Assembly: GCA_903904635.1 (NCBI GenBank)
Contig: CAIVDH010000033.1
Coordinates: 1 to 21,546 of the forward strand
Length of the DNA stretch: 21,546 bases
Direction of reading: 5' to 3'
Origin: an uncultured Burkholderiales bacterium
Lineage (GTDB): Bacteria > Pseudomonadota > Gammaproteobacteria > Burkholderiales > Burkholderiaceae_D
Positions 5,796 through 17,039 of the stretch are shown piece after piece. Position numbers and translations under genes: made by a program. How positions within the stretch are numbered: position 1 is the first letter of the stretch; the number at the start of each line of letters is the position of its first letter. The notes under the pieces were generated by a model. That model searched no databases, was not told where the DNA came from, and saw only the letters and a program-made list of their open reading frames with translations.

Positions 5796-7360
5796 ACATC
5801 ACACATCGATTCCATCCGCGACAAGTGACTGACTGGCTGCAAAGCGTACTGCCGGCAGCGCAGAGTCAACTTACGCAACAGAGCCGTGCGCAGTTAACTG
5901 CTGATTCACGCCGCATTTCGGCCGGTGATGTATTTCTTGCATATCCGGGTGATGCAGGTGATGGCCGTCAATATATTGCGCAGGCGATCGAAGCTGGTGC
6001 GCGTGCGGTGCTCTATGATGCATGTGGCGGATTTGAGTGGAATGTGCAATGTGATGTGCCGCATCTGGCCATAGCAGAACTACGGCAAGCTGCCGGCTTG
6101 ATTGCCCATGCATGGTATGAGCAGCCCGATCAGGGTATGTTTGCCGTCGCAGTCACTGGCACTAACGGTAAAACATCCTGCACCCAATGGCTGGGGCAAG
6201 CACTCTCGCGGAATGGTCTGCCTACTACCGTAATTGGTACCCTCGGTGTGGGCCTGTTTCAAAACGGGCAGGTAAATCATTTTGAAGAAACCGGTTACAC
6301 CACGCCGGACGCCGTGCAGCTGCAGCGCCATCTGGCTACACAAAAACAGCTAGGTGCATGCGCTTATGCCATCGAGGCTTCGTCTATAGGCCTGCATCAG
6401 GGTCGCATGAATGGTCTGCATGTTGATGTTGCCGTATTCACCAATCTCACGCGCGATCATCTTGATTATCACGGCAGCATGGAAGCTTATGAAGCAGCCA
6501 AGGCGCGCTTGTTTGAGTGGCCGGATATCAAGCATGCGGTCATTAATCTTGATGACCCAATCAGTCCCCGGCTGTTGGCGCAAGTACGCGCGCGTAAACC
6601 CGACGTCACAATTTTTGCTTACACCATCGGTGAAGCGGTAGAGATAGAAGGCGTTGCCGTACTGCGCGCAAGCGAGATGCGTAACTCACCGCTAGGCACG
6701 ATATTTCAAATGACATCCCCCATGGGGATTGCGCAAGTGCGCTCGCATTTGATAGGCCGTTTCAACATCAGTAATTTGTTAGCTATCGCGGGCGTCTTAT
6801 TTGCGCGCGGCCTGGATCTGCAGGAAGTCGTCATCTTGCTGGAGGCACTGACACCCGTGCCGGGTCGTATGCAGCAGCTGGGCGGTATTGATGCGCCACT
6901 GGCAGTCATAGACTATGCGCACACACCCGATGCGCTTGAAAAAACATTGCATGCGTTACGTCAGGTTGCCCATGAAAGACATGGTGCGCTTTGGTGTGTA
7001 TTTGGTTGCGGCGGTGATCGCGATCCGGGCAAGCGTCCGCAAATGGCGCTGGCTGCGTTACATGCGGATCACCAGATCATCACCAGCGACAATCCGCGCA
7101 GCGAAGACCCGGCAGCCATCATTGCGCAAATTACGGCAAGCCTGAGCACAGCAGATACAGTCAAGTTTAATGTCATAGAAGATCGCGCCAGCGCAATTCT
7201 GTTTGCCATCAAACATGCAGGCAAACAAGATGTGGTGCTCATCGCCGGCAAGGGGCATGAAGGCTATCAGGAAATCAAAGGCCGTCGTCTGGCTTTTGTG
7301 GATGCAGAACATGCTGCACTGGCCTTGGCCACACGCGCAACCCGTAACGGAGGTCATTGA
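5792..7360 (+). CDS. murE: UDP-MurNAc-tripeptide ligase MurE (meso-diaminopimelate-adding)
   Basis: MurE adds the third amino acid to UDP-MurNAc-L-Ala-D-Glu using ATP, in the cytoplasm. The 522-residue product has the Mur ligase P-loop GTNGKTS at 123-129 and the DNPR motif at 433-436, which marks enzymes that use meso-diaminopimelate, as expected for a Gram-negative. Other landmarks are FTNLTRDHLDYHG near 215, EAAKARLF with the lysine that is carbamylated in the family, and the C-terminal AGKGHEGYQE. The GTG start lies in a GTGA overlap with the ftsI stop and has GGAG (5783-5786) upstream. At the 3' end its TGA overlaps the murF ATG by one base. Confidence 0.97.
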   Translation: MNITHRFHPRQVTDWLQSVLPAAQSQLTQQSRAQLTADSRRISAGDVFLAYPGDAGDGRQYIAQAIEAGARAVLYDACGGFEWNVQCDVPHLAIAELRQAAGLIAHAWYEQPDQGMFAVAVTGTNGKTSCTQWLGQALSRNGLPTTVIGTLGVGLFQNGQVNHFEETGYTTPDAVQLQRHLATQKQLGACAYAIEASSIGLHQGRMNGLHVDVAVFTNLTRDHLDYHGSMEAYEAAKARLFEWPDIKHAVINLDDPISPRLLAQVRARKPDVTIFAYTIGEAVEIEGVAVLRASEMRNSPLGTIFQMTSPMGIAQVRSHLIGRFNISNLLAIAGVLFARGLDLQEVVILLEALTPVPGRMQQLGGIDAPLAVIDYAHTPDALEKTLHALRQVAHERHGALWCVFGCGGDRDPGKRPQMALAALHADHQIITSDNPRSEDPAAIIAQITASLSTADTVKFNVIEDRASAILFAIKHAGKQDVVLIAGKGHEGYQEIKGRRLAFVDAEHAALALATRATRNGGH

Positions 7361-8745
7361 TGCGCGCCGATCTCCAACAACTATGCGCTGCCATACCAGG
7401 ATCGCGCATCACTGCGCCAGCGCATTGTGATGGTGTGTCAACCAATAGTCGGGCGATTGAGGCCGGCAATTTATTTGTGGCGTTGGTGGGCGAGCGTTTT
7501 GATGCGCATGATTTTCTGCCTGACGTAGCCAGCAGCCGCGCCGCCGCTGTGGTGGCACATCAGGTGCCGCAAAATTATCCGCTGCCCGCATTGCTGGTGC
7601 CGGATACGCGTCATGCCTTGGGTCAGATCGCTAATTGGTGGCGTCGTCAATTTGCCATACCGGTCATAGGCGTCACAGGCAGCAACGGTAAAACCACCGT
7701 CAAAGAAATGATCGCTTCCATACTGCAGGCCGAGTATGGCGCGGGACAGTATCTTTCTACCTCAGGCAATCTGAATAATGAAATTGGCGTGCCATTGACA
7801 TTGTTTCGACTCAATGCACAACACCGTGCCGCTGTCATTGAGATGGGTATGAATCATCCGGGCGAAATTGCGCGTCTGGCAGAAATTGCACAACCCAGCG
7901 TTGGCTTGGTAAATAACGCACAGCGCGAGCATCAGGAATTCATGGCTACGGTTGCCGCAGTGGCAGAAGAAAACGGCGCCGTGATTAACGCTTTACATGC
8001 TGATGCATGCGCCGTATTTCCTGCCGATGATGAATTTACACCCCTGTGGCAATCCTATGCGGGTACACGACGCATAATCAGTTTTGGATTAAATCCTGCT
8101 GCGCATGTCAGCTGCACCTATAGCAGCAAAGAATTCGGCAGCACCCTCAACATCAATATCAACATCAATGCCAATGCGAATGTCCATAGCGAAGTTTTTA
8201 CCGCAGAACTAGCTGCAGCCGGCGTGCATAACGTGCGTAATGCGTTAGCAGCCTGCGCGGCCACGCTGGCCATAGGCATTAGCCCGGCAACGATTGTGCG
8301 CGGCCTGCACGCGTTCAGTCCTGTAGCGGGCCGTCTGCAGCGCAAGAGCGCAAAAAATGGCGCATTGCTTATCGATGATACCTACAACGCCAACCCTGAT
8401 TCAGTACGCGCCGCCATTGATGTGCTGGCAGCAGCACCATCACCACGCACACTCGTGCTGGGCGATATGGGTGAGGTGGGCAGTGAAGGTATCGCTTTTC
8501 ATCAAGAGATCGGTGCGTATGCACTTGCGCAACATATCGATCAGCTTTTTACAATCGGCACACTCGCCCGTCATGCCAGCTCGGCGTTCGGCGCAGCAGC
8601 CCGTCATTTTGAAGACATGGATAAATTAAACGAAGTCATCAGCACCATTACCCCCGAGGCCAGCGTTCTGGTTAAAGGTTCGCGGTTTATGAAAATGGAG
8701 CGGGTTGTGCAACATCTGACCGGCATCACAGCAGGAGCTCACTAA
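7360..8745 (+). CDS. murF: UDP-MurNAc-tripeptide:D-Ala-D-Ala ligase MurF
   Basis: MurF adds the D-Ala-D-Ala dipeptide to complete the UDP-MurNAc-pentapeptide. The ATG at 7360 follows GGAGG (7349-7353) at 6 bases and overlaps the murE stop (TGATG); a TTG just before it is in frame but not needed. The product is 461 residues. Visible motifs are the P-loop [13 protein letters not shown] with Lys111, [30 protein letters not shown], and [10 protein letters not shown] near residue 343. An unusual low-complexity stretch of alternating Asn with Ile/Ala (264-275) sits in the central domain and is probably an insertion in a surface loop. Its substrate dipeptide should come from ddl in the same operon, which is frameshifted here. 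Confidence 0.96.
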
Positions 8746-12646: not shown

Positions 12647-13737
12647 AGCCGCACATGAAGCTCATGGTCATGGCAGCCGGTACCGGCGGCCATATTTTCC
12701 CCGGACTGGCGATTGCTGAAACCATGCGTGCGCGCGGATGGCAAGTCACATGGCTGGGCACAGCGCGCGGCATGGAAGCCGAGATTGTGCCGCGTCATGA
12801 TCTGGTGTTTGATGCAATTGATTTTAGTGGCCTGCGCGGCAAAGGCTGGCGTCATACCGTTACAGGCATAGTCAAAATGGCGGCCGGTTTTGTGCAATGC
12901 CTGTCCATCATGCGCAAGCGTAAGCCTGATGTAGTGTTGGGCATGGGTGGGTATGTAACGGTACCGGGCGGGCTGATGGCCAGACTCATGGGCATACCGC
13001 TGGCACTCGTTAATGCCGATGCGGCGTTACTGATGTCAAACAAGGCCTTGCTGCCATTCGCAAAAAAAGTATTGTTTGGTTTTACCACTGGCGATGCCGT
13101 CAACGCCGCCAGCGCAGCAGGAAAATTTCAAGTCACCGGCAATCCGGTGCGCAAAGAAATCAGCGCGCTACCTGTACCGGAACAACGTTATGCATCACGC
13201 AGCGGTAATTTGCATGTGCTGGTCATAGGCGGCAGTCTGGGCGCAAAAATTTTAAATGACACCGTACCTGCAGCATTGGCAAATTTGCCAGCGGCAGAGA
13301 GACCCGTCGTGGTGCATCAATCAGGCAAGCAGCACATAGATGCGCTCACTCACGCCTATAGCAAGGCGGGCGTCGCAGCCGAAGTACTGCCATTCATAGA
13401 TGACATGGCCGCGCGCTATGCATGGGCTGATCTGGTGATCTGTCGCGCCGGTGCAATCACGGTTGCTGAGTTGTGCGCAGCCGGTGTGGCCAGTGTGTTG
13501 GTGCCGTTAGTGGCGTCCACTACCTCACATCAGCGTGATAACGCAAACTGGATGGCGCAATCATTGGCCGCTTTGCATATGCCACAAACAGAATTTTCCG
13601 CGCAATCATTGGCCGCTTTGCTGCAAAAAATCTCGCGCAGTCAATGTCAGCAAATGGCACAGGCTGCCTATTTGCAAGGCAAGCGCGATGCCAATGCATC
13701 CATTGCGCAGGTACTGGAAGAATTGGGTAAGAGATGA
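12643..13737 (+). CDS. murG: Lipid II synthase MurG (GlcNAc transferase)
   Basis: MurG transfers GlcNAc from UDP-GlcNAc to lipid I on the cytoplasmic face of the membrane, making lipid II. The 364-residue GT28 protein has the N-terminal GTGGHIFP loop (His17), [11 protein letters not shown], the VIGGSLGAK loop near residue 200, HQSGKQH, and the UDP-binding [11 protein letters not shown] segment with Glu276, followed by [14 protein letters not shown] (12632-12636) lies 6 bases before the ATG at 12643, which favours it over the in-frame ATG at 12655. Near the C-terminus the peptide AQSLAAL occurs twice 15 residues apart, encoded by an exact 22-base DNA repeat. The start overlaps ftsW and the stop overlaps murC (ATGA both times). 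Confidence 0.97.
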
Positions 13738-15134
13738 AACACAGAATTAAAAAACTACATTTTGTCGGCATAGGCGGTTCCGGTATGAGCGGGATTGCTG
13801 AAGTGTTGCTCAATCTTGGCTATACCGTTTCTGGTTCAGATTTGAACAGTAATGCGGCCAGTCGCCGGCTGGCAGATTTGGGTGCTGTCATACATATAGG
13901 TCATGCCCCTGCCCATGTTGATGGCGCTGATGCGATTGTGACTTCGACTGCCGTCAAGGCCGACAATCCTGAAGTGATTGCTGCGCGTGCGCTGCATATT
14001 CCTATTGTGCCGCGTGCAGTCATGTTGGCTGAGCTGATGCGCTTGAAGAGTGGCATTGCCATAGCCGGCACCCATGGCAAGACCACCACCACCAGTCTGG
14101 TTGCCAGCGTGCTGGCAGAAGCCGGATTAGATCCTACCTTTGTCATCGGTGGTCGATTGAACAGTGCAGGTGCGAATGCAAAATTGGGTTCGGGTGATTT
14201 TATTGTCGCTGAGGCGGATGAGTCGGATGCTTCGTTTCTGAATCTCTCACCGATGATAGAAGTTATTACCAATATCGATGCCGATCATATGGAAACCTAT
14301 GATCACAGCTTCGCCAAGCTCAAGCAGGCATTTATAGAATTTACGCAGCGACTACCATTTTATGGTGTGGCGATATTGTGTGTGGATGATGCCAATGTAC
14401 GCGAAATCATGCCGTTCATCTCCAAGATGATCATGACTTACGGTTTTCATGAAGAAGCTGATGTGCGTGCAATTGATGCACAAGCGGTGCATGGTCATAT
14501 GGAATTTACGGTAGCGCAGAAAGATTATGCGCCGCTAAAAGTGCGCTTGAATCAGCCTGGCATGCACAACATACAAAACGCTTGTGCAGCAATTGCGATT
14601 GCGCGTGAGCTGGATGTCAAAGACAGTCATATTCAAAAAGCCTTGCTGGAATTTACCGGCGTCGGAAGACGTTTTACCCGCTATGGCGAATTGCCACTGC
14701 CAGGTGATAAAGGCAACTTCGCGTTAGTCGATGACTACGGCCATCATCCGGTCGAGACCGCAGCCACCATTGCAGCGGCGCGCGGTGCTTATCCGGGGCG
14801 CAGGCTGGTGCTGGCTTTTCAGCCGCATCGTTACACCCGCACGCGTGATTTGTTTGAAGATTTCGTCAAGGTGCTCTCAACGGTAGATGTGCTGGTGCTG
14901 GCTGATGTGTATGCCGCAGGCGAGCAGCCCATACCGGCAGCGGATGGCAGATCGCTAGCGCATGCACTGCGAGTCGTCGGTAAGACGGAACTGATCTTTG
15001 TAGAAAATATCGCAGACATGCCTGCCACTTTGCTGGAGATGGCAAGCAATCATGATGTGGTCATCACGATGGGTGCAGGATCAATTTCGAATGTGCCGGG
15101 TCAATTGCAGCAACTGACCGCGCAAAAACCTTAA
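13734..15134 (+). CDS. murC: UDP-MurNAc:L-alanine ligase MurC
   Basis: MurC attaches L-alanine to UDP-MurNAc with ATP, the first step of stem peptide assembly. The 466-residue product has the UDP-binding GIGGSGM at 12-18, the P-loop GTHGKTTTT with Lys116, the [10 protein letters not shown] segment, [20 protein letters not shown] starting at Asp333, and FQPHRYTRT. All are typical of MurC. The ATG overlaps the murG stop. It is followed by a 42-base gap before ddl, the first real gap since mraY-murD. Confidence 0.97.
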
Positions 15135-15139
15135 AAGGT

Positions 15140-15180
15140 ATGAATTTAGTAAGCGTGAATTTATGAGTGTGAATGTATGA
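15140..15180 (+). other. Two tiny ORFs chained by ATGA overlaps into ddl
   Basis: ATG at 15140 opens an 8-codon frame (MNLVSVNL) ending with TGA 15164-15166. This overlaps an ATG at 15163 that opens a 5-codon frame (MSVNV) ending with TGA 15178-15180, which overlaps the ddl ATG at 15177. ddl has no clear ribosome binding site of its own. AAAGG at 15134-15138 is too close to the first ATG for a normal site. The block is built from repeated TGAATTTA-like units, so chance is possible. Expression is not shown. Confidence 0.25.
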
Positions 15181-16153
15181 ATGCGAATTTAAAACAGGAA
15201 TTTGGCAAAGTAGGTGTGTTGTTCGGCGGACGCTCTGCCGAGCGCGAGATATCGTTGATGTCAGGATCTGGTGTGCTCGAGGCATTGCTTGCAGCCGGTG
15301 TTGATGCGCATGCATTTGATCCGGCAATGCGCACGCTTGCCGATCTGGCAGCAGAAAAATTTGATCGGATATTTATTGCCTTGCACGGACGCTATGGTGA
15401 AGACGGCACGTTGCAAGGTGCGCTTGAGCAGATGGGTATTCCCTACACCGGCCCCGGTGTACTGGCTTCGGCCATTGCAATGGATAAGGCGATGACCAAG
15501 CGCGTCTGGTTATTCCATGGACTCTCTACACCGCGCTTTGAAATGTTGCATGCGCAGAGCGATTGGAATCAGGTAGCAGCAACGCTGGGTTTGCCCTTGA
15601 TTGTGAAACCGGCGCATGAAGGCTCGACGCTGGGTCTGACAAAAATAACGGATGCATCGCAATTACCAGCAGCGTATGCGCAAGCAGCAAAATTTGATCG
15701 CGCAGTAATGGCGGAAGAATTCATCAGCGGCATGGAGTTGACATGTCCGGTGTTGGGCGAGGGTGATGATGCACGTGCGCTGCCGGTGGTGCGCATCGTT
15801 GCGCCTGATGCCAATTATGACTATCAGAATAAATATTTTTCAAACGAGACGCAGTATCTGTGTCCTAGCGGTCTGCCAGAAGCGCAGGAAAACAGATACA
15901 GCAACTGGTGCTGGATAGTTATCGCACGCTGGGTTGTCGCGGCTGGAGTCGTGCTGATGTGATGGTACGCGCAACAGATGGCAAGCCGTTCCTGTTGGAG
16001 ATTAATACTTCGCCAGGTATGACGGGTCATTCACTGGTGCCGATGTCGGCCAAGGCCGCGGGCATGCCGTATGAAGCCTTGTGCGTAGAGATATTGCGAA
16101 TGGCGGCACTCGATCTGCAAGCTAAGCCGGCTTGGAATGAGCAAAAGAACTGA
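15177..16153 (+). pseudogene. ddlB: D-alanine--D-alanine ligase, interrupted by a 1-base frameshift
   Basis: Ddl joins two D-alanines with ATP to feed MurF. The first frame gives a normal Ddl N-terminus ([16 protein letters not shown], then ATP-grasp segments [13 protein letters not shown] and [11 protein letters not shown]) to Glu238 and then runs into 23 unrelated residues and a stop at 15960-15962. The family continuation ([20 protein letters not shown] through [14 protein letters not shown] to the stop at 16151-16153) is in the other frame. One extra A in the run 15889-15892 restores a gap-free 325-residue Ddl. The lost part holds the Mg2+ ligands, Asp261, Glu275 and Asn277 in restored numbering (E. 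coli DdlB 257, 270, 272), so the truncated form should be inactive. A sequencing or assembly error in the A run, a genuine mutation backed by a second ddl elsewhere, or recoding are the options. The rest of the downstream frame shows no decay, which favours error or a very recent mutation. Confidence 0.93.
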
Positions 16154-16175: not shown

Positions 16176-17039
16176 ATGTGGAATGACATCAGAACCTTGA
16201 ACATCCTCACCCGAGCCATGCTCGGTGTGCTGCTGCTCGTTCTGCTTTCTGCTGGTTATAAATGGGTGGCCAGGCAAAGTTTTTTTGACTATCGCGTAAT
16301 TCGTGTCAAAGGCGCGCATCAGACGCCGCTGCGTTTTGTAGATGAGGCAACAGTGCGTAGTTCGGCGTTGCCGCGATTACGCGGGAATTTTTTGAACGGC
16401 GATTTACATACAATGCGCGCCATATTTGAAACAGTGCCTTGGGTTCATCGCGCATCAGTAAGACGCGAATGGCCTAACAAACTGGTTGTGACGGTAGAAG
16501 AATATGAAGCGCTGGGAACTTGGGGTAAAGACGATGATCGCTTGCTCTCAGTTGACGGTGTGGTGTTTACGGCGAATTTGTATGAAGCCGAGCAGGAAGG
16601 TCGGTTGCTTGAATTGTCGGGCCCGGAAGACAGCGCACCAGAAGTGGCTGCACGCGTAAAAGATTTGCAGGCATGGCTGGCGCCAGTTGGACTCAAGCCA
16701 CGCGGTTTGAGTTTATCCAGGCGCTATGCATGGACTGTCGAGCTCGACAATGGCACTACCTTGAAGCTGGGACGTGAACATGGTCCGGGTCAGATTAAGG
16801 CGCGGGTAGAAAGATTTGTCAGTGTTTATCCGCAACTGGCAGAGCGGCTGCCCAATGGTATGGGCGTGATAGACATGCGTTATCCAAATGGACTGGCGCT
16901 GCGCTTACGGACAAATGGCGGCAATAGTGTAAGCAGTGCCAGTCGTGTGAATGGTACCTATGGTGTTAATGGTATTAATTATACGAATGATGTGATTGAA
17001 GATGATGCTGCGCGGCCTGAAGAAAAAAGTGACATCTAA
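16176..17039 (+). CDS. ftsQ: Cell division protein FtsQ
   Basis: FtsQ is the bitopic scaffold of the FtsQLB complex. The 287-residue product has a short N-terminal tail (about 12 residues, much shorter than in many relatives), one membrane segment (about 13-31, TRAMLGVLLLVLLSAGY), a POTRA domain starting near residue 37 (FDYRVIRVKGAHQT ... VPWVHRASVRREWPNKLVVTVEEYEALGTW) and the beta domain after it, ending near GLALRLR (239-245). A 41-residue tail rich in Asn, Gly and Ser, then acidic, follows (247-287). It lies 22 bases after ddl; the upstream AGAGAG is too far away to be a good ribosome binding site. Confidence 0.95.
   Translation: MWNDIRTLNILTRAMLGVLLLVLLSAGYKWVARQSFFDYRVIRVKGAHQTPLRFVDEATVRSSALPRLRGNFLNGDLHTMRAIFETVPWVHRASVRREWPNKLVVTVEEYEALGTWGKDDDRLLSVDGVVFTANLYEAEQEGRLLELSGPEDSAPEVAARVKDLQAWLAPVGLKPRGLSLSRRYAWTVELDNGTTLKLGREHGPGQIKARVERFVSVYPQLAERLPNGMGVIDMRYPNGLALRLRTNGGNSVSSASRVNGTYGVNGINYTNDVIEDDAARPEEKSDI

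Follow-up and report, generated by a model that had tools for sequence, protein, structure and literature searches.

According to a study of frameshift pseudogenes, many of these are assembly errors and checking of the reads is advised; MAGs lay outside its scope (PMC11017572). The ddl break described here resembles the spurious breaks of draft assemblies in that one base interrupts the frame of a conserved gene that belongs to an essential pathway, that an intact, otherwise identical protein exists elsewhere, and that the same assembly contains further breaks; it differs in lying in what is probably a MAG, a type of assembly that the study did not assess, and in having been judged from the assembled sequence. 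The closest described protein is DdlB (NF002378/TIGR01205; PF01820 plus PF07478). Both pieces of the copy in the window (the whole stretch of DNA that was analysed, 21,546 nucleotides) share the sequence of this family and its place between murC and an ftsQ-like ORF, and an intact protein on record, P0002, has its full length (325 aa), whereas the assembled copy in the window is spread over two frames and its ORF stops after 261 aa.

The window is contig C33 of a draft assembly of 2,469,048 bases in 443 contigs (87.91% complete), and the nearest named loci, among the best 80 of 574 matches, are from Oxalobacteraceae MAGs or genomes with at most 86% identity over the Ddl part. In the vicinity of ddl, murE, murF, mraY, murD, ftsW, murG, murC, ftsA and ftsZ all have NCBIfam matches above cut-off, and the features discussed here lie on the plus strand of the window. 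The upstream neighbour murC is intact (13734..15134; TIGR01082, 543.5 bits), and the downstream ORF (16176..17039), which lacks an NCBIfam match at E<=1e-30, is termed ftsQ by position alone. MurF, the consumer of the Ddl product, is likewise intact as had been claimed for it (7357..8745), matching TIGR01143 across the entire model with 424.5 bits.

The assembled ddl ORF extends from 15177 to 15962 and encodes 261 aa, the first 238 residues of which are those of a DdlB-type D-Ala-D-Ala ligase (15177..15890; NF002378, 306.4 bits; identical to P0002 1-238). The N-terminal and ATP-grasp parts of a functional DdlB are present in this piece (PF01820, 77.8 bits; PF07478, 101.4 bits). The frame changes at a run of four A residues (15889..15892), and the ORF then runs through an out-of-frame tail to a premature stop (15891..15962), in agreement with the preliminary description, in which a normal Ddl was followed to Glu238 and then by unrelated residues and an early stop. 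None of three Pfam families or of 25 listed among 47 NCBIfam families has its best stretch past residue 244 of the ORF. The remainder of the gene, 86 codons and a stop, lies in the -1 frame (15893..16153), and its 86 residues are exactly those with which P0002 ends. The PF07478 profile is accordingly divided, positions 10-139 matching in the ORF frame and 137-203 in the frame from 15893 (74 bits), so that the single frame through the C-terminal metal-binding end that is expected of a functional DdlB is not found in the window. Between the two pieces the window has a spacer of 2 bases, against 3 in relatives, as was anticipated from the view that the family resumes in the other frame one base short. 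The break is not a misreading of the sequence, because the two family-matching pieces, the single frame found in all of 31 relatives' loci that were compared directly, and a coding-frame scan that makes no use of homology and puts the switch at 15891 (in both a larger and an earlier, smaller scan) agree on it. Of these 31 loci, which include some genes reached twice through two collections, 29 have a spacer of 3 bases, and for two (L016 and L019) the local alignment gives 0.

The lost end contains the segment RADVMV (P0002 259-264) and an 11-residue segment (P0002 273-283), both of which can be aligned to solved Ddl structures and which we take to be the carriers of the metal ligands. The omega loop is presumably that around Lys215-Tyr216 of E. 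coli DdlB, the equivalent of which in the alignment is Lys219-Tyr220 in P0002 numbering; it sits upstream of the break and is retained. The statement that both the Mg2+ ligands and the omega loop had been lost thus holds for the ligand-bearing segments, given their presumed role, and fails for the loop.

Differences between the window and its relatives per site at codon positions 1, 2 and 3 are 0.187, 0.093 and 0.538 upstream of the break (6,960 codon comparisons) and 0.200, 0.132 and 0.504 downstream of it (2,419 comparisons). These totals were obtained from 30 of the 31 loci, L009 having been left out for its shortened downstream part, and are descriptive, the loci being related and partly duplicated. 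Because the downstream differences fall mostly at third codon positions, the pattern suggests that the lost end was working coding sequence under selection until very recently. An old pseudogene was ruled out on the same codon-position pattern.

A search of about 5.77 billion proteins, in which 8,000 candidates were scored and 120 homologues listed, returned two proteins that bear directly on the break. P0002 (325 aa), encoded on a contig of 2,345 bases and known here from its protein sequence, agrees exactly with the window in its first 238 and its last 86 residues, which are joined by a single extra one. One mark of an indel error in assembly is an unbroken but otherwise identical copy of the protein on a different contig, and P0002 is such a copy. 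The other, P0001, is the broken form of Ddl and is found on 2 contigs, and the remaining 119 of the 120 listed homologues, P0002 among them, are 314-330 aa long.

We put at roughly 80% the probability that the ddl break is a one-base indel error of the draft assembly. Under this reading, the break would have arisen where a draft assembly, probably a metagenomic one, went wrong at a short A run, and the ddl of the organism would most likely be intact, a single-copy gene in the division and cell-wall cluster for a normal ligase of the DdlB type. We infer that the fault is in the assembly and that the sampled cells do have the base. As far as sequence comparison can tell, the indel error would account for the intact but otherwise identical P0002, for the unbroken state of every distinct relative's locus, for the apparent selection on the lost end, and for the frame breaks elsewhere in the assembly. 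The main point against a pure artefact is the occurrence of P0001, the broken form, on 2 contigs: if the second contig came from an independent sample it would favour a real variant, although one contig deposited twice would give the same picture. For a typical homopolymer error, moreover, four or five A residues make a short run.

Comparison of the run in close relatives, as proposed in the preliminary description, was extended to 109 pooled loci, of which 101 are distinct over the first 600 bases of the match. All 101 are unbroken at the window's break site, and a split frame at that site was found in none of them. A single stop-free frame is seen outright in 95, and in the six that were flagged the pieces share one frame, with the sole stop at most 10 residues from one end of the aligned stretch and away from the junction.

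Frame breaks were also sought elsewhere in the assembly by a scan of 77 of the 443 contigs (398,934 of 2,469,048 bases), picked by contig number as a non-random sample, which includes the window (C33) and three contigs with ATP-grasp matches (C130, C344 and C353); since the scan depends on 90 coding bases to either side, smaller events escape it. It gave 47 switches, 37 of which were assigned by rule to gene boundaries. Of the 10 remaining, three are breaks supported by homology, namely the window's ddl, L168 and L142, so that outside the window there are two in 377,388 sampled bases, and the layout of the ORFs led us to regard the other seven as gene boundaries or as noise of the model, with Pfam consulted for L124, L123 and L176 only. 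At L123 (G000:C30, 1646-2816), two adjacent ORFs have no Pfam match at E<=0.001. An earlier, smaller scan of 37 contigs (201,276 bases) had given 28 switches, that at 15891 among them.

At L168 (G000:C140, about 1761), a run of nine A residues divides lpxK into two frames, and both halves match PF02606. The region of the second half lies in frames of at least 268 aa in all 17 other genomes of the genus; in three of them it comes as two stretches, in four a single TAA lies within the match, and one has a 53-aa fragment elsewhere in addition. Counting against an indel error, no intact protein identical to the broken lpxK product was found among the 120 listed, the nearest being P0121 (341 aa, 94% identical). 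At L142 (G000:C18, about 245), a gene of the HpcH/HpaI aldolase/citrate lyase family changes frame near a contig end, and its out-of-frame end has a weak match, below cut-off, to a C-C bond lyase model. In eight of the 17 other genomes a close relative aligns as far as the switch and no further (residue 209 or 210), in one case with an internal TAG; a ninth aligns to residue 167, and the remaining eight have weak matches only.

A control genome, G014, was scanned over 20 stretches (302,923 bases) and gave 59 switches, of which 12 were left and two look by eye, without homology, like real breaks. Since the control also shows breaks, they are not unique to the window's own assembly and the comparison carries less weight, which counts against an indel error; the contrast between the two assemblies is in the kind of gene hit, not in the bare rate. 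Both G014 breaks (L208, G014:C12, about 5334 and 4482 on the minus strand) lie, on reading, in one large haemagglutinin-like gene.

The strongest competitor to an assembly error, possible though much less probable, is a genuine recent deletion of a single base in a minority of cells, a strain variant that was picked up by the assembler. The broken form on 2 contigs is in keeping with this, as is the undecayed downstream part, which would be expected of a very recent event. Cells of such a variant would be without ligase and hence inviable or short-lived unless compensated, and, as no second ddl was found in the assembly, a lineage bearing the lesion should not persist; the existence of the intact, otherwise identical P0002 and the other frame breaks in the assembly, which hint at a general cause, also speak against it. 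A run error or a recent mutation had been considered likelier than a second ddl or slippage, a ranking with which the unbroken relatives and P0002 agree. New biology is the less likely reading of the break, which is most probably an error or else a rare dead variant. A break that was both real and fixed would imply that peptidoglycan can be made with no intact Ddl. Breaks of this kind in essential-type genes of draft assemblies call for caution: near-identical copies and the break rate of the same assembly should be consulted before any biological meaning is drawn from them.

It is very improbable that ddl has truly been lost and that D-Ala-D-Ala is supplied by another ligase. At 87.91% completeness, a second gene could be absent from the assembly. 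The genome-wide search for another D-Ala-D-Ala ligase that had been recommended, made with the PF07478 profile, turned up none in this incomplete assembly: the profile matches at six places, two of which are the ddl pieces, and a second ligase among the other four was ruled out, these being two biotin carboxylases and two cyanophycin synthetase-like proteins. In 20 same-genus genomes, further matches, taken as a group, are at E 2.6e-8 or weaker, the exceptions being pieces of ddl itself (G004, G008) and, in G017, a stretch at ddl that is out of frame. The lack of decay in the lost ddl end also argues against loss with replacement. Equally improbable is a real ddl-null variant circulating in this Oxalobacteraceae-like population, to which the broken form on 2 contigs would belong; weak slippage, a second ligase that the assembly lacks or D-Ala-D-Ala taken up from neighbouring cells would then keep it alive.

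Programmed -1 slippage or transcriptional slippage yielding a full-length Ddl was rejected and has a negligible probability: the two ddl pieces do abut without loss and the second has the pattern of selected coding sequence, but the site, which in the first frame is CAG GAA AAC AGA, reads G GAA AAC and contains no slippery heptamer X XXY YYZ for a -1 shift, the 100 nt from 15886 give no stimulatory RNA fold better than shuffles (z 0.61, 144 of 200 as good, by pseudoknot-free folding), none of the 101 distinct relatives' loci shares the split, and the identical unbroken protein is on record.

Three of the 20 same-genus genomes were left out of the set of 101 distinct loci. G011 has just a weak match (E 2.6e-8) in a frame of 874 aa, and in G004 ddl is interrupted by contig ends. 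In G008, the loss of an internal part (between residues 135 and 160, away from the window's site) leaves ddl in two frames, and the frame changes in its murC and ddl are suggestive of assembly faults there as well. On reading of the G008 locus (L137, G008:C49, 1-1717), murC and ddl each seem to have lost an internal stretch and to change frame.
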